NCBI RefSeq assembly: GCF_002252755.1
Contig: NZ_NHOY01000005.1
Span: 1-64,000 of the forward strand
DNA: 64,000 nt
Direction: 5' to 3'
From: Halorubrum sp. Hd13
GTDB taxonomy: Archaea > Halobacteriota > Halobacteria > Halobacteriales > Haloferacaceae
Position 1 is the first letter of the stretch. Each line of letters starts with the position of its first letter. The notes beneath the pieces were generated by a model. The model searched no databases, was not told the origin of the DNA, and worked only from the letters and a program-made list of their open reading frames with translations. Positions 41,443 to 55,481 of the stretch are shown here, in pieces. Both the position numbers and the translations under genes were made by a program.

Positions 41443-41530
41443 CCGGGCGGCGGTCTGGCGGGAGCGGCGAGATGGGTGAGGGCCTCCGCGGGTCGGAGAG
41501 TATACGTTGCCGCGCGCCGCAGAACGCTCC

Positions 41531-42739
41531 ATGTCTCCCGCACTGCGGTGTTACCGATGTGGAGATCGCTACCGGGACCCGCTCCGCGTCCGTTGCGACT
41601 GCGGAGAGCCGCTCTGGTTCGAGCCCGACGCGGCGGCGTTCGGCTGGGAGGACTGCCGGGCGTACGACGGCGCGTGGCGGTACGAGCCGCTCTTGCCGAT
41701 CGACCGGCCCGAGGGAGTCGCTCGCGCCGCGGGCGGCACCCCGCTGGTCAGGAGCGAGGGCCTCGACGACGCCGCGGGCTGTCGCGTGTACGTCAAAGAC
41801 GAGGGCGAACACCCGACCGGCGCGTACAAGGACCGGGGCAGCGCCGCGGCCGTCCCGCACGCGGTCGCCGCGGCGGACGGCGCCGTCGGAACCGTCTCGT
41901 ACGGCAACATGGCGATGAGCACCGCCGCCCACGCCGCGAGCCTCGACAGGGAGTGCGTCGTCCTCGTTCCCGACGACATCTCCCCGGTCCGACTCGAGCT
42001 CATCGGCCAGTACGAGCCGACGATCGTGCGCGTCGACGGCGACTACGGGGCCCTCTACGGCGACGCGCTCGACCTCTCCGACGAACTCCCGGTCCGGTTC
42101 CTCGTCAGCGACGCCCCGGCTCGGATAAGCGGATACGCGACCGCGATGTTCGAGATCTGCGAGGCGTTCGCCCCCGACGCGCCCGACGCGGTCGTCCTGC
42201 CGACGAGCTCCGGCGGGTTCGCCTCGGGGCTCTGGCGCGGGATCCGCGACCTCGAGGCCGCCGGACTCCTCGACGACCCCCCGCGGCTGTGCCTCGTCCA
42301 GACCGCCGCATCAGACCCGATAACGCGGGCGTTCGAGTCGGGCGCGACCGACCCGACGCCCATCGCGCCCGACGAGACCGGCGAGACGATCGCTCACTCG
42401 ATCGGGAACCCGGACCCGCCGAGCGGCGGTCGCGCGCTCGCCGCGGTCCGCGACACCGCCGGCGCCGTCGTCTCCGTCGACGACGACGAGATACGAGCCG
42501 CGCAGCGGCGGTTCGCGGTCGACGGCGGGTTCTGCGTCGAGCCGGCGTCGGCGGCGTCGCTCGCGGGCGCGACCCGGCTGTCGGAGCGCGGCGAGATCGA
42601 CGACGACGACGCCGTCGTCCTCGTTCCGACCGGGACGGGGTTCAAAGAGCTCGGGACCGGCGACGCGTCGGTGGCGACCGAGCGGACGAACCGGTCGGCC
42701 CTCCCGGAACTGCTCGCCTCGCTGCTCTGCGCCTCTTGA
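41531..42739 (+). CDS. thrC: Threonine synthase-like PLP enzyme
   Basis: A 402-residue enzyme. An N-terminal zinc-ribbon-like segment (CYRCGDRYRDPLRVRCDCG) precedes a fold-type II PLP domain. The Schiff-base Lys is in PTGAYKDRGSAAA, and the phosphate loop is PTSSGGFASGL. Threonine synthase makes threonine from O-phosphohomoserine; haloarchaeal relatives often carry more than one paralogue, so substrate is not certain. The start at 41531 begins MSPALRCYRC. The last 134 bp are duplicated at 55348-55481. Confidence 0.85.
   Translation: MSPALRCYRCGDRYRDPLRVRCDCGEPLWFEPDAAAFGWEDCRAYDGAWRYEPLLPIDRPEGVARAAGGTPLVRSEGLDDAAGCRVYVKDEGEHPTGAYKDRGSAAAVPHAVAAADGAVGTVSYGNMAMSTAAHAASLDRECVVLVPDDISPVRLELIGQYEPTIVRVDGDYGALYGDALDLSDELPVRFLVSDAPARISGYATAMFEICEAFAPDAPDAVVLPTSSGGFASGLWRGIRDLEAAGLLDDPPRLCLVQTAASDPITRAFESGATDPTPIAPDETGETIAHSIGNPDPPSGGRALAAVRDTAGAVVSVDDDEIRAAQRRFAVDGGFCVEPASAASLAGATRLSERGEIDDDDAVVLVPTGTGFKELGTGDASVATERTNRSALPELLASLLCAS
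42606..42739 (+). repeat. 134-bp direct repeat, copy 1 (3' end of the threonine-synthase-like gene)
   Basis: The first 105 bp (42606-42710) are identical to 55348-55452. The last 29 bp differ at five positions, giving protein ends ELLASLLCAS here and ERLASLLGAR in copy 2. Both copies stop at the same relative base. The arrangement is that expected at the left border of an element integrated into the 3' end of a gene. Confidence 0.9.
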
Positions 42740-43261: not shown

Positions 43262-46200
43262 GTGTACACGTCTGAAGCCAAATCGGCGGAGGAGGCACAG
43301 CGACGAGACGACCCTATCGAGAACGGAGACGAGATCACAGTGAGCGCATCCGCAACCACCCGGTTCTTCGCGGTCGCGTTCTCCGTGCTGATGCTGGTCT
43401 CGGCCATGGGGGCCGGGATAATCGGCGGGGCCGGCGTCGCGCAGGCGCAGAGCGGTGGGGATGTTATTGAGCGGGTGAACGCGGGTGGAGCGAGCGTGAG
43501 CACGTCGTCCGGACCGGACTGGACCGCCGACAGTGGCGGGAGCACGTACAGCTCCGGCGGCACGGCGTACACGGCGGATAGCCTGTCAGCGGGGGACGTC
43601 ACGAATCCGACGGACGCGCCGTCGGAGGTGTTCCTCACGGAGCGGTTCGGCGATCACTCGTGGTCGTTCGACGTGAGCTCCGGGACCGAGTACGAGGTCC
43701 GGCTCTACTTCGCCGAGATCTACTACGGCGTGAACCCCAATACAGATGGCGCGGACACGGGCGACCGCGTGTTCGACGCGTCGATCGAGGGACAGCAGGT
43801 CCTGAACGACTACGACATCGTCGCCGAGACCGGCGGCGCCGCGACGGCCACCGTCGAGACGTTCGAGGTGACCCCGTCTGACGGAACGATCGACGTCTCG
43901 TTCACGAACGAGGTGGACAACGCGAAGGTGTCCGCCATCGAGGTCGTCGAGGCCACGCCCGACCCCGGCGTGCTCGGCGGGCCCGACAGCGTTGACTTCG
44001 GGACGGTCGTCACCGGCGAGAACGCGACCGAGTCCGTCACCCTCTCGAACGAGGGGGAAAGCGGTGATCAGTCGATCACGGTCGACGGCGCCTCGGTGTC
44101 CGGCACCGACGCCGGCGACTTCTCGACGGACTTCTCCGGGAGCGTGACGCTCGCGCCCGGCGAGACGACCGACGTCCCCGTGACGTTCTCGCCGTCCGAC
44201 GCCGAGGCGAAGTCGGCGAGCCTGGAGGTGAGTCACGACGCGGAGAACACCACCTCGCCGTTGACGGTCGGTCTGTCTGGTGAGGGGTCCAGTTCGGTTC
44301 CAGTCGGCTTCGGACACACAGAGCTCGACGGCTTCTCCGCGGGCAGCCCCACGTCGATCGACTGGGGGCCCGACGGGCGGCTCTACGTCTCCACTCAGGG
44401 TGGCGAGGTGTTCGCCCTCACGGTCGAGCGGAACGGAGAGGACAGCTACCAGGTGACCGAGACGGAGACGATCGACGAGATTCTGGACATCCCGAACCAC
44501 AACGACGACGGCTCCTTCGCCAGTCTCGGCGACCAGCGTCTGGTGACGGGGCTGCGCGTCGGCGGCACCGCCGACCAGCCGGTCCTGTACGTCACCTCCA
44601 GCGACCCGCGCGCCCCCGTCGGGAACGACAACCCGCCGGAGCAGAGCCTCGACACCAACTCAGGGACTATCTCGCGGTTGACCCAGCAGAGCGACGGGAG
44701 CTGGGATCACGATGTCCTCGTGCGCGGCATCGCGCGCTCGGAGGAGAACCACGCCGTCAATGGGCTTGCCATCGCCGACGGCGGCGACACGCTGTACGTC
44801 GCGGTCGGCGGCCACACGAACCAGGGCGCGCCCGGCGACAAGCTGTCGTACCTGCCGGAGTACGCGCTCTCGGCGTCCATTCTGGAGGTCGACGTCGCAC
44901 AGATCGAGAGCAACAACCAGCCGAAAGACGCGCTCGACGAGAACGGTAACGCGTACGCGGACTACTACTACGACATCCCGACGCTGAACCCCAACCAGTC
45001 GAACGCGCCGAACGGCGGACCGTTCGGCGGGCTCGACGGCGTCAACATGGCCAAGCTGGTCGACGGTGGTCCCGTGCAGGTGTACTCGCCCGGCTACCGG
45101 AACCCCTACGACGTTGTGATCCGCCCGAACGGCGACCTCTACACGATTGACAACGGTCACAACGGCGGTTGGGGCGACCAGCCCGTCGGCGAGGGGACGA
45201 ACCAGTGCACCAACGAGATCAACGACGGCGGCGGCGGTGGCGACAACCCGCTTCACCACATCGATCAGGAAGGCTACTACGGCGGTCACGCGAACCCAAC
45301 GCGCGCGAATCCGGACGGCGCGAACGTCTACGCGGGCGGGTTCAAGGACAACGCCGGCGAGCTCTTGGTCAACTTCAGTAAGAACTCGCCGGTCGAAGTC
45401 CCGGCCAACCCGGTCGAGTGCGACTGGCAGGCGCCCGGCGACGACGGAGCGCTGACGACCTTCGGTGCATCAACCAACGGGCTGGGCGTCTACACGGCGG
45501 ACAACTTCGGCGGGGCGCTCGACGGCGCGCTGCTGGCGGCTAGCTTCGACGGTAACACCTACTACACGACGTTCAACGAGAACGGGACCGAGGTCGTCGA
45601 CAAGCAGGCGCAGTTCTCGGCCGGCTTGAACACGCCGCTCGACGTCACCGCGATGGACGACGGCGAGGCGTACCCCGGCACTGTGTGGGTCGCTGACTTC
45701 GGCGGGAACGACATCGACGTGTACGAGCCGGACGACTACGGCGACAGCACCGGCGGCGGTGACCAGTGTATCGCCGACGATCCGGACGATCCGGACTACG
45801 ATCCGGACGGTGACGCCGACGGCGACGGCTACACCAATCAGGACGAGAACGAAGCCGGATCCGATCCGTGTTCGGCCTCGTCCACGCCGCCGGACTTCGA
45901 CGACGACGGGATCTCGAACCTGAACGATCCCGACGACGACAACGACGGCACGCCGGACACCGAGGACCCGTTCGCCATCGACCCGGACGACGGGACGACG
46001 ACGACCGCGCCCGTCGAGTACTCGTTCCAGAAGTCCTCGGGGCCCGGAACGATCCTGGACCTCGGATTCACCGGCCTGATGACGAACGGGACGGACTATC
46101 AGGACCTGTACGACACTGAGAACGTCATCGCGGGCGCCGCGGCGCCGGTCCTCACGGTCGAGGACGTGCCACCCGGTGACGCGTTCGAGGGAACGAACAC

Positions 46201-49200
46201 CCAGCAGTACGCGTTCCAGTCCGGCGTTCAGGTGAACGACGAACCGCTGACCGTCCACACGACGCTGGAGGCGCCGTTCTCCTCCACGCCCGAAGGCGAC
46301 GGCTTCCGGTCGCAGGGCGTGTACATCGGGAACGGCGACCAAGACAACTACGTCAAGCTGGTCGTCACAGAGAGCGGGGCGACGAGCGGGACGCCCGGTC
46401 TGGAGCTGCTGACGGAGGTCAACGGGAACGCGACGAACACGAAGATCGACGAGACCGACGTGGTCGGCAGCAAGACGGTCGACCTCTACCTCGACGTGTA
46501 CCCGGGTAACGACACCGCGGTCGCACGGTACGCGATCAGCGGGAACAACATCGACGGGACGGTTACCGGCACGCTCGGCGAGACGGACGTTCCGTCGAGC
46601 TGGCTCGACAGCACCGACCAGGGGATGGCGTTCGGCGTCATCTCGACGTCCAACAGCGCCGGGACGTTCGGCACGGAGGACCCGTACACGGCGACGTACA
46701 CCCAGCTTGAGGTAACCCAGCAGGGGACGGAGACGGACAACACGCCGCCGTCGATCGACGCTATCTCGAACCAGTCGGTCGTCAGCGGCGAGAACGTCAA
46801 CGTCTCTGTGAGCGCGTCCGACGACGACGGCGACTCGGTGTCGCTGTCGCTGAGTCAGTCGCCGGAGTTCGTGACGCTCGCGGACGGTGAGATCAGTGTC
46901 GATCCGCAGTCGAGCGACGCCGCGAACTCGCCGTACACGGTCGAGGTGACGGCTGACGACGGCACCGACACGACCACCGAGAGCTTCGAGCTCGCGGTCG
47001 ACACGGCGACTTCGACCACGGCCGGTACGGCGCTTGCGCGTGCGAACGCCGGCGGGTCGACGCTCTCGGCCACCGACGACGGTCCCGACTGGACCGGCGT
47101 CACGGGCGTGACCGCCGACGGCCCGCTCGTCTCAGTCAGCGGTACTGCAGATAACTACAACGATGGTGACGACGTGACGCCGGGCGACGAGGTTTCGTCG
47201 AGCACCCCGTCCGGAGTGTACGACGCGGAACGGTTCGGTGCGATGACTTGGGAGTTCGACGTGCCGTCCGACTCCGAGGTCGAGGTCCGTCTCTACCTCA
47301 GCAATCAGTTCCCGGGGGCCAACACGAGCGGCGACCGACAGTACAACGTCGCCGTCGAGGGCGACCAAGTGCTGACGGAGTACGACCCGGTCCAAGACGT
47401 CGGTCAGGCCAACGGGACGGTGAAGGCGTTCACCACCACCGAGGACGGCGACGGGAACGTCTCGGTCAGCTTCACCGAGGGGGCGATCGAGTTCCCGCAG
47501 GTCAACGCGATCGAGGTCGTCGAGCCCGGGACATCGACGCCGGAGCCCGAAGCGTCGGCCGACGTGGCGATCACGCCCGGCAGCGGTATCGAAGCGAGCA
47601 CCTACGGCGGCGGTTCGTTCGAGGTCACGAACACTGGCGAACAGAACATCGAGTCGGTGACGATCGACCTGAGCACGACGACGCTCCCCGACATGGTGTT
47701 CGATCCCGAAGGCACGGCCGGCGACGGGGCCGCCAAGGGCCTGAGCATCGACAGCGAGTCGGGTGATGGCGTCGGCGTCGTCTCGGTGGCCGACAGCGAC
47801 GTGTTCAGCCAGCCGCACAACGGACAGAACGACTCGGACGGCTACGACGTGCTCACGATCGAGTTCACCGACTTCGATCCCGGTGAGACGGTCGCGTTCT
47901 CGGCCGACAACGATCCGACGAGCATCAAGGGTGCGACGATCTCCTCGCAAGAGGCGGGCCCGGTGTCCGGGCTCGAACTCGCACGGGCGACGGTCGATGT
48001 CGGGTACTCCGACGGCACGACCCAGACGACTCAGACGATCGGTGACGGGAGTCCAGGCGGCGCCGAGGCCGTCGCCGACGGTGACGTCCCGGCCGCGCCG
48101 AGCATCGGTGTCCAAAATGTCTCGCTGGACGGGAGCGTGCTCGACGGCTACCACAGCGCCGCGACGGTAACCGACGCCGCACAGACGGTTACCGTCTCCG
48201 GGCCCGCGAACGCCGATGTGACGCTCGTTAGAGTCGAGGGCGAACTCGAACTCGACAATGTACCCGACTACAACGGGACGCCGGGCTACGATATTGAGGA
48301 CTACGAGGCCAACAAGGCCGAAGACGTCGAGTACTACTCGACCACGCTCGACTCGAACGGCGAGGCAGCGATACCGGTGACGCTGACCGACTCGACCGAC
48401 GTCGGCAGTCTCAACTACTTCGTTGCCGCTGTGGAAGACGGTGACGGAGCGGGACTGGCCTCCGACGCGGTCGTCCTCGAACTCGACGAGGGCTCCGCCC
48501 CGACGGTTGATTCTATCACCGACAAGGGCGTCACCGAAGGCGAGTCGCTGACCGTCGACGTGCCGGCGTCCGACGCCGACGGCGACGCGCTCGACCTGTC
48601 CGTCAGCGGACCGTCGTTCGTCGCCCTCAACGACCAGAACGACACGCTCACCGTCGCGCCCGGTGACGACATGGTCGGCACGTACGGCGTGACCGTCACC
48701 GCCGACGACGGGAACGCGACCGCGAGCGAGTCGTTCGCGGTGTACGTCGACGAACCCGACCAGAACGGGACGGTCGTCACGGCAGTCAACGCCGGCGGAG
48801 GCAACTACACCGCCAGCGACGGGACCGAGTACGTCGCCAGCGCGGACAGCGACGTGTTCAGCGGTGGCTCGACGTACAGCGTCAATCAGTCCATCGCGGC
48901 CACCGAGGACGACACGCTGTACCAAACTGAACTGTTTGGCGAAGGCGACGGCGCGCCGAACGTCGACGTGCCTGTCGAGAACGGCACCTACGAGGTGACG
49001 CTGCAGTTCACGGAGATCTTCCAGGGCGTCTCCGACAGTGACTCGCCGGACTCGTCCACGCCGCCGACCGACGGCACGAACGAGAACGACCGCCTGTTCA
49101 GCGCGACGGTCGAAGGCGAGGAAGTGCTCACGGAGTACGACATCTACTCCGAGGTCGGCCCGCTGAACGCGACCGACAAGACGTACACGGTCAACGTGAC

Positions 49201-49549
49201 CGACGGAGAGCTGAACGTCGACTTCGCGGTGACCAACGACAACGCGAAGATCAGCGCGATCAAGGTCGAGGAGATCGACACGGGCGACGAGATCGACACG
49301 CCCATCGACGGCTTCGAGAACGCGCCGACGGACCCGGACGGCGACGGGCTCTACGAGGACGTCAACGGCGACGGCGACGTGAACGTCGGTGACGCTCAGG
49401 CAATCTTCAGCAACGCCGACGATCCGGTCGTCCAGAACAACACCGACGCGTTCGATTACAACGGCGACGGGTCGGTGAACTCCGGCGACGCACAGGCGCT
49501 GTTCGCCAACGGTCTCGCGGCCGGCGACGACGACGGGACGGAGGCCTGA
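43262..49549 (+). CDS. Exported malectin/sugar-dehydrogenase protein with C-terminal dockerin
   Basis: A 2095-residue exported protein. A signal segment (about 33-63, ending GGAGVAQAQS) precedes a malectin-like domain (66-232), an ASPM/SPD2/Hydin-like beta domain (236-343), and a six-bladed propeller of the soluble glucose/sorbosone dehydrogenase family (345-825) with GYRNPYDVVIRPNGDLYTID as the active-site strand. Then come Asp-rich calcium repeats (840-910), a lectin-like beta domain, cadherin-like and further malectin domains, and a type I dockerin at the end (two DxNxDGxxNxxD loops: DVNGDGDVNVGD and DYNGDGSVNSGD). It probably oxidises a sugar outside the cell while docked to a cohesin. 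The GTG start follows an in-frame stop; GTG 43340 is an alternative. Confidence 0.85.
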   Translation: MYTSEAKSAEEAQRRDDPIENGDEITVSASATTRFFAVAFSVLMLVSAMGAGIIGGAGVAQAQSGGDVIERVNAGGASVSTSSGPDWTADSGGSTYSSGGTAYTADSLSAGDVTNPTDAPSEVFLTERFGDHSWSFDVSSGTEYEVRLYFAEIYYGVNPNTDGADTGDRVFDASIEGQQVLNDYDIVAETGGAATATVETFEVTPSDGTIDVSFTNEVDNAKVSAIEVVEATPDPGVLGGPDSVDFGTVVTGENATESVTLSNEGESGDQSITVDGASVSGTDAGDFSTDFSGSVTLAPGETTDVPVTFSPSDAEAKSASLEVSHDAENTTSPLTVGLSGEGSSSVPVGFGHTELDGFSAGSPTSIDWGPDGRLYVSTQGGEVFALTVERNGEDSYQVTETETIDEILDIPNHNDDGSFASLGDQRLVTGLRVGGTADQPVLYVTSSDPRAPVGNDNPPEQSLDTNSGTISRLTQQSDGSWDHDVLVRGIARSEENHAVNGLAIADGGDTLYVAVGGHTNQGAPGDKLSYLPEYALSASILEVDVAQIESNNQPKDALDENGNAYADYYYDIPTLNPNQSNAPNGGPFGGLDGVNMAKLVDGGPVQVYSPGYRNPYDVVIRPNGDLYTIDNGHNGGWGDQPVGEGTNQCTNEINDGGGGGDNPLHHIDQEGYYGGHANPTRANPDGANVYAGGFKDNAGELLVNFSKNSPVEVPANPVECDWQAPGDDGALTTFGASTNGLGVYTADNFGGALDGALLAASFDGNTYYTTFNENGTEVVDKQAQFSAGLNTPLDVTAMDDGEAYPGTVWVADFGGNDIDVYEPDDYGDSTGGGDQCIADDPDDPDYDPDGDADGDGYTNQDENEAGSDPCSASSTPPDFDDDGISNLNDPDDDNDGTPDTEDPFAIDPDDGTTTTAPVEYSFQKSSGPGTILDLGFTGLMTNGTDYQDLYDTENVIAGAAAPVLTVEDVPPGDAFEGTNTQQYAFQSGVQVNDEPLTVHTTLEAPFSSTPEGDGFRSQGVYIGNGDQDNYVKLVVTESGATSGTPGLELLTEVNGNATNTKIDETDVVGSKTVDLYLDVYPGNDTAVARYAISGNNIDGTVTGTLGETDVPSSWLDSTDQGMAFGVISTSNSAGTFGTEDPYTATYTQLEVTQQGTETDNTPPSIDAISNQSVVSGENVNVSVSASDDDGDSVSLSLSQSPEFVTLADGEISVDPQSSDAANSPYTVEVTADDGTDTTTESFELAVDTATSTTAGTALARANAGGSTLSATDDGPDWTGVTGVTADGPLVSVSGTADNYNDGDDVTPGDEVSSSTPSGVYDAERFGAMTWEFDVPSDSEVEVRLYLSNQFPGANTSGDRQYNVAVEGDQVLTEYDPVQDVGQANGTVKAFTTTEDGDGNVSVSFTEGAIEFPQVNAIEVVEPGTSTPEPEASADVAITPGSGIEASTYGGGSFEVTNTGEQNIESVTIDLSTTTLPDMVFDPEGTAGDGAAKGLSIDSESGDGVGVVSVADSDVFSQPHNGQNDSDGYDVLTIEFTDFDPGETVAFSADNDPTSIKGATISSQEAGPVSGLELARATVDVGYSDGTTQTTQTIGDGSPGGAEAVADGDVPAAPSIGVQNVSLDGSVLDGYHSAATVTDAAQTVTVSGPANADVTLVRVEGELELDNVPDYNGTPGYDIEDYEANKAEDVEYYSTTLDSNGEAAIPVTLTDSTDVGSLNYFVAAVEDGDGAGLASDAVVLELDEGSAPTVDSITDKGVTEGESLTVDVPASDADGDALDLSVSGPSFVALNDQNDTLTVAPGDDMVGTYGVTVTADDGNATASESFAVYVDEPDQNGTVVTAVNAGGGNYTASDGTEYVASADSDVFSGGSTYSVNQSIAATEDDTLYQTELFGEGDGAPNVDVPVENGTYEVTLQFTEIFQGVSDSDSPDSSTPPTDGTNENDRLFSATVEGEEVLTEYDIYSEVGPLNATDKTYTVNVTDGELNVDFAVTNDNAKISAIKVEEIDTGDEIDTPIDGFENAPTDPDGDGLYEDVNGDGDVNVGDAQAIFSNADDPVVQNNTDAFDYNGDGSVNSGDAQALFANGLAAGDDDGTEA

Positions 49550-49697
49550 TCAGCCGCCGCTCCGCGCTTCGGCCCGATGCCACTCCAGAGGTATGGCACC
49601 CACGCGGGCCGGGCGCCCCCGGACAGACCACGCACCAACCACCCACGACCTGACCGACCCACGACACGAGACGACAGCCCAGACGAGAAAGAACCCG

Positions 49698-52145
49698 ATG
49701 AAACCCACAACACCGACCCAACGGAAGGCGCTGACCCTGTTGATAGCCGTGGTGGTCGCCCTCTCGGCGACCGCCGGCTTCGCAGGCGCAGCGACGACAA
49801 CCGAACTGACAGTATCGATTACGGACGACGACAACACGATCGAACCCGGCGAGACGACGACCGTCGAAATCGCGGTCGCGAACGCCGACAACGGCGTCGG
49901 CGCCGCAGAGCTCGGTGTCGAATTGAGTGACCCCGGAGTCGGGACGATAACCGACGTGACGATCCCGAACGCACCCGGAAGTACGGACAACAACATCACC
50001 GGCGGCGGCGCGGCGGCAGACATCAAGTACGCCTTCGCTAACAACTCTGACACCGGTTCGGTCACCATCGTCGAGATGACCGTTCAGGGCGCATCGGCCG
50101 GGACGACAGACATCGAGATCACCGAGAACAGTCAGACCGGCTTCCTCGCCGTCTTTGACGAGAACGGAGCCGGCTACACGCTCGATACCATCGGCAGCGC
50201 GACGCTGACGGTCAACACCCCGCCCGACGCGGACGCGGGCCCGGACCAGACCGTCGACGAGGGCGAGACGGTCACGCTCGACGCGACCGCGTCGAACGAC
50301 CCGGACGGCGACTCGCTGAGCTACTCGTGGACCCAGACCGGCGGTCCGGACGTCTCGCTGAGTGACGCAGACACCGCCAATCCGACGTTCCCCGCCCCGG
50401 AAGTCACCGAGGACACCGCGCTCGATTTCGAGGTGGAAGTCACGGACACCGTCGGAGCGACCGACAACGACTCGGTCAGCGTGACCGTCCAGCTGGCCGC
50501 GCCCGCGGCGGCGAACTTCCAGGTCTCGAACCTGAGCGCACCCAGTAGCGTCACAGAGGGCGAGAACATCACCGTCTCCGCGGACGTGGAGAACACCGGC
50601 GGCCAGACCGCCACTAAGTCGGTCGAGTTCCGCCTCGACACGGACGGCGACGACTCGATCGACGACGAGGGCGCGCTCGCGTCGCAGGGCGTCGAGCTTG
50701 CGCCCGGCGAATCGACGACCGTCACCTTCGATAACATCGACACGAGCGGGCTGTCGGGCACGCTCACGCACGGGGTGTTCACGGTAGACGACACCGAGAC
50801 CGCACAGATCACGATCAACGAGCCCGCGGCGGCGGACTTCCAAGTGTCGAACCTGCAGGCACCCGAGAACGCGACGCAGGGCGACGCGATCGACGTCTCC
50901 GCCGAAATCGATAACGCGGGCGAACAGACCGCGACCAAGTCCGTCGAGTTCCGCATCGACGCGAACGGTGACGGCTTCGGCGACGCCGGTGACGTGGCCC
51001 TCAGTCAGAACGTCGAACTCGCCGGCGGCGAGTCGACGACGGTCGAGTTCACCGACGTCGACACGAATCCGCTGGCGCCGGGGACCTACGACCACGGCGT
51101 CTTCACCGAGGACGACAACGCCACCGCGCAGATCACCGTCGAAGCACCGCCGGAGCCGCCGGGTGACAAGGAGACGACCGTAAGCCTCCAGCCCGCCGAC
51201 CAGACCACCGCCGTCGGCGTCACCGCGACCTATGAGATCGTCGTCGACAGCGCGGACGGCGGCGTCGGTGCGGCCGAGATCAGCGTCGCCGTCGACGATC
51301 CCGGTGTTGCGGCGATCACCGGCGCAAGCGCTATCGACGCGAACGCGAGCGAACAAGTTGATGTCGCCGCGGACGGCTCGTCGGTCGACCTGGATTACGC
51401 GTTCGCCGACACCGCCGAGACGGGCAGTGTCGCCGTCGCGACGGTGACCGTAGAGGGCGCCAGCGCCGGAACCGCGAACCTGTCGCTCGCACCGACCGAA
51501 ACGAACGACGAGGTACTCGTCTTCGACGAGAACGGCGCCCCCTACGACGTGACCGGGACCGACGGTGCGGCAGTTGAGGTGCAAGCGGTGCAGTTCCTCG
51601 TGGACGACCTCGAGGCGCCCGAGAAGGCGCCCGTCGGGAGCGACGTCACGGTCACCGCGAACGTCACCAACGACGGCGGACAGGCCGCCACGCAGACGGT
51701 GGAGTTCCGCCTCGACGTCGAGGGCGACGGCTTCGGCGACGACGACGACGTGGTCCTCTCACAGAACGTCCAGTTGGAGCCCGGAGAGTCGACGACCGTC
51801 GAGTACACCGACATCGGTACGGGCGGTCTCGCACCCGGTGACTACACCCACGGCGTCTTCACCGAGAACGACTCCGCGACCGCGACCCTCTCGGTGGAGG
51901 AAGCGGAGGAGGGGCCGCCGCCGGTCGGAAACTTCACCGACGCACCGACTGACCCTGACGACGACGGTCTCTACGAGGACGTCAACGGCGACGGCCAGTT
52001 CAACATCGTCGACGTCCAGGCGCTGTTCGCCAACCTCGACGACGAGACGATCGAGAACTACCCGGACGCGTTCGACTTCAACGGCGACGGTACCGTCGAC
52101 GTCGTCGACGTGCAGAAACTGTTCACGGAGTACTCAGACCAATGA
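49698..52145 (+). CDS. Scaffoldin-like protein: two cohesins, PKD, CARDB repeats and a dockerin
   Basis: An 815-residue exported protein. A Sec-type signal (residues 9-31) is followed by a cohesin-like domain (32-172, GETTTVEIAVANADNGVGAAE), a PKD domain (175-265, PPDADAGPDQTVDEGETVTL), two CARDB-like repeats (272-375 and 378-482), a second cohesin-like domain (492-630), a third CARDB repeat (631-733), and a C-terminal dockerin (745-812; loops DVNGDGQFNIVD and DFNGDGTVDVVD). Having both partner types makes it able to bind enzymes and dock elsewhere, as bacterial scaffoldins do. It overlaps the next gene by 4 bp (ATGA). The start MKPTTPTQRK suits the signal; upstream in-frame Met residues do not. 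Confidence 0.82.
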   Translation: MKPTTPTQRKALTLLIAVVVALSATAGFAGAATTTELTVSITDDDNTIEPGETTTVEIAVANADNGVGAAELGVELSDPGVGTITDVTIPNAPGSTDNNITGGGAAADIKYAFANNSDTGSVTIVEMTVQGASAGTTDIEITENSQTGFLAVFDENGAGYTLDTIGSATLTVNTPPDADAGPDQTVDEGETVTLDATASNDPDGDSLSYSWTQTGGPDVSLSDADTANPTFPAPEVTEDTALDFEVEVTDTVGATDNDSVSVTVQLAAPAAANFQVSNLSAPSSVTEGENITVSADVENTGGQTATKSVEFRLDTDGDDSIDDEGALASQGVELAPGESTTVTFDNIDTSGLSGTLTHGVFTVDDTETAQITINEPAAADFQVSNLQAPENATQGDAIDVSAEIDNAGEQTATKSVEFRIDANGDGFGDAGDVALSQNVELAGGESTTVEFTDVDTNPLAPGTYDHGVFTEDDNATAQITVEAPPEPPGDKETTVSLQPADQTTAVGVTATYEIVVDSADGGVGAAEISVAVDDPGVAAITGASAIDANASEQVDVAADGSSVDLDYAFADTAETGSVAVATVTVEGASAGTANLSLAPTETNDEVLVFDENGAPYDVTGTDGAAVEVQAVQFLVDDLEAPEKAPVGSDVTVTANVTNDGGQAATQTVEFRLDVEGDGFGDDDDVVLSQNVQLEPGESTTVEYTDIGTGGLAPGDYTHGVFTENDSATATLSVEEAEEGPPPVGNFTDAPTDPDDDGLYEDVNGDGQFNIVDVQALFANLDDETIENYPDAFDFNGDGTVDVVDVQKLFTEYSDQ

Positions 52146-54631
52146 GTGTCACAGAGATCGGTACGACGATCGAGGCGCAGAGCACGGCCGTTATCGCGGT
52201 GATAGCGCTGATTGCGACCGCCGGTATCGGCGGGGCTGCCCTGGCGGTCGGCCCGGACGCGGGCCTGCAGACGGGGGCGGCACAGCAGGAGAATCCGCTC
52301 GAGACGGGGGTGAGCCTCGAGCCGAGCAGCGCGACCGTCACCAGCGGTGAGACGACGACGTACGACGTGGTCGTTGACACCGCCAACGGGGGCGTCGGAG
52401 CGTACGAGTTCACCGTCAGCATCGCCGATCCGAGCGTCGCCTCGATATCGGACGTCGCCGTCGGCGGGAATCCGAGCGAGCAGACGACCGACGTCTCGAT
52501 CGCAGCGGACGGGTCCTCAGCCGACGTGACGGCGGCGCTCGCCAACACGTCGGATAGCGGGATGGTGACTATCGGAACGGTCACCGTCCAGGGGGACGCC
52601 GCGGGAAGCAGCGACGTGTCGCTCGCAGTCGAGGCGCTCGGCACCGAAGGCGGCGCATCGTACACCGTGACCGAAACGACGGACGCATCGATCACCGTCG
52701 AAACGGCAGACGATGGCGATGACGCCGACGATGGTGACAACGGTTCCGACGGCGGAGATGGTGACGACGGTGACGATAGCTCCGATGATGACAATGGAAA
52801 CTTCGACGTCAGCATCGTTACAACGAACTCACCGATCCAGAAGGGCGTAGACAGTGAATTTGTGGTGTTTGTCTCGGTTAGCAACACGGCTGAGCTACCC
52901 GACTCCGGGACTCCCGAGCCCGACACTCAGGACATCGAGCTCCGCATTAACGGGACCGACGTAGCCACGACATCACCCTTCACTCTCCGTCCCCAAGAGC
53001 AAGTAATTGACACTGGAATCTCAGTTGACGTTTCTGAGCTCGCCCCCGGTGAGTACGAGGCAGTAGTTGCATCCGATGATGATAGCGAGACAGTTCCTTT
53101 GATAATAACTCCAGGGTCCGAGTACGCTCTGTCGAACCTGGATCCAGCCGAAGCGACCGTAACGGCGGGAGATGATCCAATCGATATTTCCGCCGACATA
53201 GAAAACGTTCGTGACCTGACCGGCGACCAAGATATCGAACTGACCGTCACTGATGAGGTAACCGGTGAAGTCGTCTACAACGACACTGAACCGGATGTCA
53301 CACTCGACGCCGGTGACTCGACAACCGTCACGTTCGAAAATGTCCCAGCCGGTGACCTCGAACCCGGAGAATATACTCACGAAGTCTCTTCGGAGGACGA
53401 CTCCGTCGCTGGCAACCTGACTGTCGAAGAAGACGAGCAGAACGGTTCCGATGGTGACGACGGAGACGACGGTGACGACGGAGACGACGGTGCGGACGAC
53501 GGTGAAGACAGTGACGACGGAGATGACGGTGCGGACGACGGTGAAGACAGTGACGACGGAGACGACGGCGCGGATCTGGAGACTGCGGTGAGCCTCCAGC
53601 CGTCGGAATCGACGGTTACCGTCGGCGAGACGACGACGTACGACGTGGTCGTCGACACGGCTAACGGCGGTGTCGGTGCGTACGACTTCGATATCACGGT
53701 CGACGACCCGTCGGTGGCTTCCGTTACGGATCTCGAGTTCGGCGGAGACCCGTCCGCGGAAACCAGTAACGCGACGTTCGCCGACGACGGCTCGTCGGTG
53801 TCGGTCTCGGCCGCGCTCGCGAACACCAGTGACACGGGAAGTGTCACCATCGCGACGGCCACCGTCACCGGAGATGCTCCCGGAACGAGCGGGTTGTCGC
53901 TCGCGGTCGACGCACTTGGCACCGAAGACGGCGAGCCGTACACCGTGACCGAGACGACGGACGCCTCGATCACGGTCGAGTCTGATGACGGCGACGACGG
54001 TGACGCTGGCGACGGGGACGGTGATGACGGTGATACAGACGACGGTGATGACGGTGATGGTGCCGACGACGGCGACGATGACGATGCGGGCGACGGCGAT
54101 GGTGCCGACGACGGTGACGATGGCGAGGACGCCGACGATGGCGATGCGGGCGACGATGGCGATGCGGGCGACGGCGACGGTGATGACGGTGATGGTGCCG
54201 ACGACGGCGACGACGAAACCGTCTACTGGCAAGTTGACTTCAGCGAGGGTGAGGATCCGCCGACGCCGCCCTCGTACTGGCCGAACGATGTGATGTCGGG
54301 GCTCGGTAACTCCGAGAATGGGGTTACGGAAAACCCCTCACTCCGTAGACAAGAATCGGACGGACAGCTCGGTGACGTCAACATCGTCGACAACGAGTTC
54401 AAATTCGATGACGAGGGGAACCCGACGGAAGTCACGGTCAAATTCGAACTCGAAGAAGGCGCCGAAGCACGGGACCTGCACCTCGCAGCGTTTACGCTTC
54501 CGGGACCGTTCGACGAAGATGAAATCGACCAACAAGAGCTGTTCGAAGCCACCAGCGGGACCTACGAGGGAGGTGAGACGGGAGAGCTAACGGTATCGAT
54601 CCCGCAAGAGGACGGGGACGAGGACGGCTGA
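52142..54631 (+). CDS. Cohesin-bearing exported protein with Asp-rich linkers
   Basis: An 829-residue protein. A hydrophobic segment at 13-36 exports or anchors it. Cohesin-like domain A (53-188) and B (478-613) both show the pattern GETTTYDVVVDTANGGVGAY and end TVTETTDASITVE. Two CARDB-like units (220-325 and 328-430) separate them. Acidic linkers of Asp, Gly and Ala (189-219, 430-477, 614-692) flank the folded parts. A distinct C-terminal domain (693-829, VYWQVDFSEGEDPP) is unrecognised and has no PGF-CTERM or dockerin. It may be the cell-anchoring or matrix component that receives dockerins from the two upstream proteins. Confidence 0.8.
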   Translation: MSVTEIGTTIEAQSTAVIAVIALIATAGIGGAALAVGPDAGLQTGAAQQENPLETGVSLEPSSATVTSGETTTYDVVVDTANGGVGAYEFTVSIADPSVASISDVAVGGNPSEQTTDVSIAADGSSADVTAALANTSDSGMVTIGTVTVQGDAAGSSDVSLAVEALGTEGGASYTVTETTDASITVETADDGDDADDGDNGSDGGDGDDGDDSSDDDNGNFDVSIVTTNSPIQKGVDSEFVVFVSVSNTAELPDSGTPEPDTQDIELRINGTDVATTSPFTLRPQEQVIDTGISVDVSELAPGEYEAVVASDDDSETVPLIITPGSEYALSNLDPAEATVTAGDDPIDISADIENVRDLTGDQDIELTVTDEVTGEVVYNDTEPDVTLDAGDSTTVTFENVPAGDLEPGEYTHEVSSEDDSVAGNLTVEEDEQNGSDGDDGDDGDDGDDGADDGEDSDDGDDGADDGEDSDDGDDGADLETAVSLQPSESTVTVGETTTYDVVVDTANGGVGAYDFDITVDDPSVASVTDLEFGGDPSAETSNATFADDGSSVSVSAALANTSDTGSVTIATATVTGDAPGTSGLSLAVDALGTEDGEPYTVTETTDASITVESDDGDDGDAGDGDGDDGDTDDGDDGDGADDGDDDDAGDGDGADDGDDGEDADDGDAGDDGDAGDGDGDDGDGADDGDDETVYWQVDFSEGEDPPTPPSYWPNDVMSGLGNSENGVTENPSLRRQESDGQLGDVNIVDNEFKFDDEGNPTEVTVKFELEEGAEARDLHLAAFTLPGPFDEDEIDQQELFEATSGTYEGGETGELTVSIPQEDGDEDG
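53480..53557 (+). repeat. 39-bp tandem repeat in the acidic linker
   Basis: Two adjacent 39-bp units, differing at one base, encode GDDGADDGEDSDD twice. The wider linker (53440-53580 and 53985-54225) is made of similar short acidic units. Confidence 0.75.
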
Positions 54632-54984: not shown

Positions 54985-55255
54985 TCGCTCTCAACCGAGG
55001 ACTCCCAAGCGAAGTACGGGTACAACTTCTCGGATCGTAGCACCGAGGCCGCCGGCGAGGTCAAGGCGATCTTCGACCGCCAGCCGTTCCCCGACGGAAC
55101 GGAGCCGGCCGACATCCGGACGCGCGACGAGATCGCCAATGAACGCTACGGCCACGACTTCGACGACGTGTGCCGCGAGACGACGATCGAGATCCAGAAC
55201 GACTACGACGCGCAGTTCGAGCTGGATAACGAGCCCCGCGATCTTATTTTTATTC
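54985..55255 (+). pseudogene. Fragment of an unrecognised gene with an internal repeat
   Basis: A stretch in one frame reads like real acidic haloarchaeal protein: TEDSQAKYGYNFSDRSTEAA, then DEIANERYGHDFDDVCRETT and IEIQNDYDAQFELDNEP. KYGYNFSDRSTEA and RYGHDFDDVCRETT look like two copies of one unit. Both sides turn abruptly into Arg/Ser/Pro-rich non-coding-like sequence. No family was recognised, so it is called a remnant. Confidence 0.45.
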
Positions 55256-55347: not shown

Positions 55348-55481
55348 ACGACGCCGTCGTCCTCGTTCCGACCGGGACGGGGTTCAAAGAGCTCGGGACC
55401 GGCGACGCGTCGGTGGCGACCGAGCGGACGAACCGGTCGGCCCTCCCGGAACGGCTCGCCTCGCTGCTCGGCGCCCGCTGA
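55348..55481 (+). pseudogene. 134-bp direct repeat, copy 2: orphan 3' end of the threonine-synthase-like gene
   Basis: This copy repeats the last 44 codons and stop of the gene at 41531, with 105 identical bases followed by 29 bases with five changes. It still reads VVLVPTGTGFKELG in frame, but its upstream sequence is unrelated, so it encodes nothing by itself. It is probably the original chromosomal gene end, left behind when the island arrived. Confidence 0.85.

Follow-up and report, generated by a model that had tools for sequence, protein, structure and literature searches.

A predicted two-joint cohesin-dockerin chain encoded in Halorubrum sp. Hd13, and related loci across the haloarchaea

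Scaffoldin-like proteins that combine one dockerin with several cohesins are reported from ANME archaea (PMC9012536), so the background is richer than the first-pass annotation of the present DNA had it, which took archaeal cohesins and dockerins to be known in isolation. The ANME cargo includes ABC-transporter substrate-binding proteins, and the passages of that source considered here describe neither an ordered operon nor a specificity code, whereas the operon reported here has both, the code being a predicted one. Haloarchaeal dockerins have been described as substrate-binding in papers that leave cohesins unmentioned (PMC10963439, PMC13260240), and a comparison of cellulolytic haloarchaea names neither cohesin nor dockerin (PMC10267330); the silence of these haloarchaeal papers on cohesins probably arises because most of these domains escape the curated profile. 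We found no description of an ordered haloarchaeal cohesin-dockerin chain in the open-licence literature. As far as could be found, then, the building principle is known from bacterial cellulosomes and apparently undescribed in haloarchaea. The clostridial and ruminococcal cellulosomes resemble the locus examined here in using the same two module folds and two apparently orthogonal joint classes, and in having an adaptor with both cohesins and a dockerin that links cargo to a cohesin-only terminal protein.

The window, that is, the whole stretch of DNA that was analysed, comprises 64,000 nucleotides from Halorubrum sp. Hd13 (order Halobacteriales; contig NZ_NHOY01000005.1). On its ORF list three co-directional open reading frames, here called P1, P2 and P3, span positions 43262-54631, with the following features.

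43262..49549, + strand: P1 ORF, 2095 aa, GTG start, exported cargo protein; domain order (Pfam/NCBIfam) malectin, choice-of-anchor-D/ASH Ig, GSDH-like propeller, calcium-loop stretch, more malectins, C-terminal dockerin
44288..45775, + strand: GSDH-like beta-propeller of P1, residues 343-838; PF07995
49352..49501, + strand: P1 dockerin, GDAQ class; genome-wide PF00404 match at E = 8e-9
49593..52145, + strand: P2 ORF, 850 aa, adaptor scaffoldin; domain order cohesin, PKD, two CARDB, cohesin, CARDB, dockerin
49806..50216, + strand: P2 cohesin 1, residues 72-208, class A (GVGAAE, YAF, VFDENG), from the profile search
51171..51584, + strand: P2 cohesin 2, residues 527-664, class A; the domain that was modelled and matched to the PDB
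51972..52121, + strand: P2 dockerin, VDVQ class; PF00404, E = 4e-8 in the genome search
52142..54631, + strand: P3 ORF, 829 aa, receiver; two cohesins, linkers of acidic D/G type, X domain at the C-terminus
52301..52702, + strand: P3 cohesin 1, residues 54-187, class B (GVGAYEF, AALANTS, LGTEGGASYTV)
53579..53980, + strand: P3 cohesin 2, residues 480-613, class B
54203..54628, + strand: C-terminal X domain of P3, unnamed in Pfam, which also ends other haloarchaeal cohesin-only proteins

Signal-peptide-type hydrophobic segments stand at the N-termini of all three proteins and bear out the earlier proposal that all three are exported; the likelier start of P2 is an ATG at residue 36, near 49698, directly before its signal peptide. 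The P2 and P3 reading frames overlap by 4 bases, and neither a dockerin nor a C-terminal transmembrane helix was found in the sequence of P3.

The two-loop dockerins that had been read at the ends of P1 and P2 are both matched by the Pfam profile Dockerin_1 (PF00404) above its cut-off of 22.9 bits, at residues 2031-2080 of P1 (34.0 bits) and residues 794-842 of P2 (29.6 bits). Read in the sequence, each contains two complete calcium loops, DVNGDGDVNVGD/DYNGDGSVNSGD in P1 and DVNGDGQFNIVD/DFNGDGTVDVVD in P2, and the loops of both proteins have the type I dockerin residues D1, N/D3, D5, N/D9 and D12. Loop positions 10, 11 and 13 are V, G, A and S, G, A in the P1 dockerin, and I, V, V and V, V, V in that of P2. 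A genome-wide Pfam search yielded a total of two dockerins and no hydrolase that carries one.

Recognition of the cohesins depended on fold. The Pfam Cohesin profile (PF00963) has no match anywhere in the genome and matches only 3 of 28 cohesin-like relatives, with a best E of 1.1e-4, and a profile search of the PDB with 28 diverse relatives returned cellulosomal scaffoldin cohesins as best matches at an insignificant E of 0.025. One of the four domains, P2 cohesin 2, was modelled with AlphaFold2 from 37 sequences taken from the window and related loci (pLDDT 97.4, pTM 0.91). All 50 PDB matches listed by Foldseek for this model are cohesins, the top among those listed, and hence the best structural match, being the non-cellulosomal cohesin 2xdh of Archaeoglobus fulgidus (E = 4.1e-9, TM 0.74, 14% identity); the other three domains align with P2 cohesin 2 over their full length at about 41-46% identity. 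Membership of another beta-sandwich family, which would have counted against the first-pass annotation, was considered and is rejected on the presence of cohesins alone among these 50 matches. We accept the cohesin identity because the predicted fold matches cohesins, the Pfam profile being silent. The claim that P2 and P3 together contain four cohesin-like domains stands on the predicted fold of one domain and its alignment with the other three, none of the four being matched by PF00963. The cohesins and dockerins of the operon are very likely genuine modules. A. fulgidus is known for isolated modules (see also PMC9012536) and is not known to have a multi-tier operon in which two classes occur.

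Both families are common in the order. Among 392 genomes, a Pfam dockerin match occurs in 170 and a cohesin-profile match in 155; 121 genomes have both, 49 a dockerin alone, 34 a cohesin alone and 188 neither, which gives an odds ratio of 14 for co-occurrence, with relatedness uncorrected. Dockerin and cohesin genes adjoin almost universally in the surveyed loci, a statement that describes loci picked through cohesin or dockerin matches and not a random sample. Relatives of the operon that differ in cargo are present in several genera and include those of Haloarcula pellucida, Halomicroarcula rubra, Halorubrum sp. CBA1125, Halorubrum salsamenti, Halobellus and Halogranum. Other cargo that bears dockerins includes a subtilase (L094), a PQQ_2/BamB-like propeller (L076), a beta-helix protein (L065) and a malectin-PKD protein (L081).

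To describe the joints, we assigned cohesins and dockerins to classes by regular expressions that were set post hoc, after the alignment had been inspected. Class A cohesins are recognised by GVGAAE, YAF and VFDExG, the last of these an insertion, whereas GVGAY, AALADT and LGTExG mark class B, and the dockerin motifs GDAQ and xDVQ differ at loop positions 10, 11 and 13, of which we take 10 and 11 to be the classical specificity positions of clostridial dockerins. In the window, the GDAQ dockerin of P1 is paired with the two class A cohesins of P2, and the VDVQ dockerin of P2 with the two class B cohesins of P3. Class A cohesins lie in the neighbouring gene for 10 of 10 GDAQ dockerins and for 1 of 55 other dockerins, the exception being L122 (Fisher P = 6e-11, a value inflated by relatedness). 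Because relatedness could itself yield this association, we compared the ten adaptors that have class A cohesins of their own: a class A gene comes next after all four with a GDAQ dockerin and after none of the six with an xDVQ-type dockerin (P = 0.005, or 0.018 when the sister locus L064 is left out), and therefore dockerin class tracks the next gene and not its own protein. When distance matrices of dockerins and cohesins were compared in a Mantel test, the correlation within the same protein was as high as that with the next gene; this test is uninformative because relatedness raises both correlations alike, and only the adaptor switch tells next-gene from same-protein pairing, genus-level relatedness inflating all of these associations. 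The gene order reads enzyme-GDAQ, then A,A-GDAQ, A,A-VDVQ and B,B,B in Haloarcula pellucida and Halomicroarcula rubra, and A-GDAQ, A-VDVQ and B,B in Halorubrum sp. CBA1125, and locus L066 has class A cohesins and GDAQ dockerins only. A third dockerin motif, QADAQ (QADAQALY), pairs with a third type of cohesin in L131-L134, L095 and L096, which form one genus-level group.

On the basis of these sequence patterns, we think it likely that P1, P2 and P3 form an ordered, self-assembling surface chain with two joints. The roles proposed in the first-pass annotation, with P1 as cargo, P2 as scaffoldin and P3 as receiver, fit the class pairing, which recurs in other genera. The exported, calcium-loaded GDAQ dockerin of P1 would plug into a class A cohesin of P2, with at most two copies of P1 on each P2, and the VDVQ dockerin of P2 would plug into a class B cohesin of P3, with at most two copies of P2 on each P3. 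P3 in turn would tether the complex to the cell surface, by way of either the X domain or the N-terminal segment. A single P3 could then present as many as four molecules of P1, a glycan-binding (malectin) and possibly sugar-oxidising protein, and a difference in specificity between the two joints would preserve the order and keep P2 from polymerising. P2 holds both module partners, and a different arrangement would have its dockerin bind its own cohesins, producing a fibre of P2 decorated with P1 and leaving P3 as a separate adhesin; indeed, L063, L064, L066 and L084 each have one adaptor with class A cohesins and a GDAQ dockerin that could self-associate. The P2 dockerin in the window, however, is of the VDVQ class, and class A cohesins in the next gene accompany every GDAQ dockerin and just the one other, so that we regard the self-binding fibre as improbable. 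We give similarly little credence to the idea that the cohesins and dockerins of the operon bind outside ligands, such as glycans, the S-layer or other surface proteins, even though the dockerins of haloarchaea are called substrate-binding in the literature (PMC10963439, PMC13260240), the propeller protein lacks a dockerin in some loci, and the malectins of P1 and PKD domains of P2 can bind glycans or proteins. Against it stand the adjoining of dockerin and cohesin genes in almost all surveyed loci, the co-occurrence of the two families across genomes and a class matching that follows gene order.

The malectins that had been claimed for P1 are clear, in three stretches (Pfam, E = 1e-54), whereas the claimed glucose/sorbosone dehydrogenase propeller is borderline, scoring 25.6 bits against the PF07995 cut-off of 25 as an isolated domain, with no PF07995 match reported by the Pfam scan of full-length P1. 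Seven of eight propeller relatives match PF07995 at E <= 0.1. Besides its borderline match, the P1 propeller shares with the soluble glucose/sorbosone dehydrogenases conserved GYRNPYD and ENHAxNGL motifs, and it differs from that family in its setting, as part of a giant, dockerin-bearing malectin protein. Residues H497, R613 and N614, which do not vary across 18 sequences, are candidate counterparts of the His and the Arg-Asn pair that act in catalysis in soluble glucose dehydrogenase; sugar oxidation by P1 is plausible. The assembly part of our preferred explanation is compatible with a propeller that is a non-catalytic binding domain, in which case the chain would be an adhesin or matrix, and although we consider this somewhat less probable, it has to be taken seriously. 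The GSDH score barely exceeds its cut-off, the nearest PDB sequence matches of the propeller are weak and partial, and most of P1 consists of malectin, Ig-like and acidic calcium-loop sequence; the invariance of polar GSDH-like site residues, such as H497 and R613-N614, over 18 relatives argues the other way. The AlphaFold2 model of the propeller is poor (pLDDT 44.7), and a search for pqqC gave no match, as did its control. Strong matches to the propeller family occur in 24 of the 392 genomes, where the genes lie mostly within about 10 kb of cohesins. The enzyme joint is not universal, because many propeller relatives have no recognisable dockerin, though they are encoded directly upstream of a cohesin-dockerin or dockerin protein; some relatives are dockerin-less and end in a malectin domain, and others carry a dockerin.

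At the other end of the predicted chain, the X domain of P3 has the pattern YYQVDF..GEP ... LSLVSYEKPGPG and occurs also in further haloarchaeal ORFs, with up to four matches per genome; it may be a sorting or surface-attachment domain. In other loci, many of the terminal cohesin-only proteins, mostly short ones, have a C-terminal hydrophobic or transmembrane segment, and further types end in an X domain, as P3 does, or in Y repeats. A C-terminal transmembrane segment is absent from all dockerin-bearing proteins in the surveyed loci. Downstream of P3, at about 55006-55228 of the window, lies the remnant of a Y domain (EVKAIFDRQPFPDGTEPADIRTRDEI). Its DNA is about 85% identical to that of the Y repeats with which the P3 homologue of Halorubrum sp. 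CBA1125 ends; the X domain may have replaced an earlier end of P3.

In contrast to clostridial and ruminococcal cellulosomes, the window has one non-hydrolase cargo, two cohesins per scaffold and no multi-enzyme set, P3 is without a visible SLH or sortase anchor, and the cohesins are too divergent for the Pfam profile. Where a cellulosome has several dockerin-bearing polysaccharide hydrolases, this genome has two Pfam dockerins on other proteins and a weaker third on a beta-helix protein. An adaptor scaffoldin is present in P2, with its class A cohesins and VDVQ dockerin, a specificity that we infer from sequence classes, and in the place of a cell-anchored cohesin protein stands P3, with an X domain and no C-terminal transmembrane helix. 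To call the assembly cellulosome-like, as the first-pass annotation did, is an overstatement, given two Pfam dockerins in the genome and neither of them on a hydrolase. With no hydrolase cargo, we reject the label of cellulosome for the operon, although the predicted chain would function much as a minimal cellulosome does.

Ten genomes were searched with a diverse cohesin alignment, and clusters in four of them were read. In these clusters, GH5, GH9 and GH10 enzymes with dockerins lie beside proteins with two to eight cohesins, and three of the four genomes also encode short cohesin proteins that end in a hydrophobic tail. L180 (G368:C23:280000-299999) encodes GH5 and GH10 dockerin enzymes, a GH5 protein in which eight cohesins occur and one short, hydrophobically tailed cohesin protein; in L181 (G265:C1) one protein combines five cohesins with a dockerin; and in L182 (G140:C1) and L183 (G353:C3) several dockerin enzymes (GH5, GH9) adjoin proteins with two or three cohesins. 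The cohesins of the cellulase clusters match those of the window in a profile-profile comparison (99.1%, E = 6e-19) and also match a PDB cohesin from a scaffoldin C (5lxv, E = 9.8e-5). L180-L183 look like archaeal cellulosomes; these clusters lie outside the finding itself but raise its weight.

Taken across the order, we lean towards the view that haloarchaea possess a widespread, undescribed toolkit of at least two orthogonal joint classes, readable from gene order, that would serve both small ordered surface chains with exchangeable cargo, such as the one predicted in the window, and true cellulosomes, the latter meaning dockerins on cellulases and xylanases and, within one cluster, an eight-cohesin scaffoldin together with a membrane-anchored cohesin. 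Once the cohesin partner is recognised, dockerin annotations that had stood apart can be read as predicted complexes, and the question of how haloarchaeal multi-protein surface machines, cellulosomes included, are assembled becomes directly testable. For engineering, such a toolkit would supply plug-and-socket pairs that are adapted to salt and whose specificity code can be read.

Within the Hd13 genome, a profile of the four window cohesins finds two more cohesins on contig C37. The locus concerned, L065 (G000:C37:67751-71124), encodes a 442-aa right-handed beta-helix (NosD-like) protein with a weak third dockerin and, overlapping its gene, a 773-aa ORF that contains Y repeats and two cohesins of class B, both divergent; these cohesins could cross-react with the P2 dockerin. 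The operon itself is flanked by a 128-bp direct repeat, 98% identical, at 42606-42733 and 55348-55475, with a spacing of 12742 bases. A genome search found no further full copies of this repeat, and its upstream copy forms the 3' end of a threonine-synthase-like gene (41507-42739), an arrangement of repeats that suggests insertion or duplication of a 12.7-kb segment.
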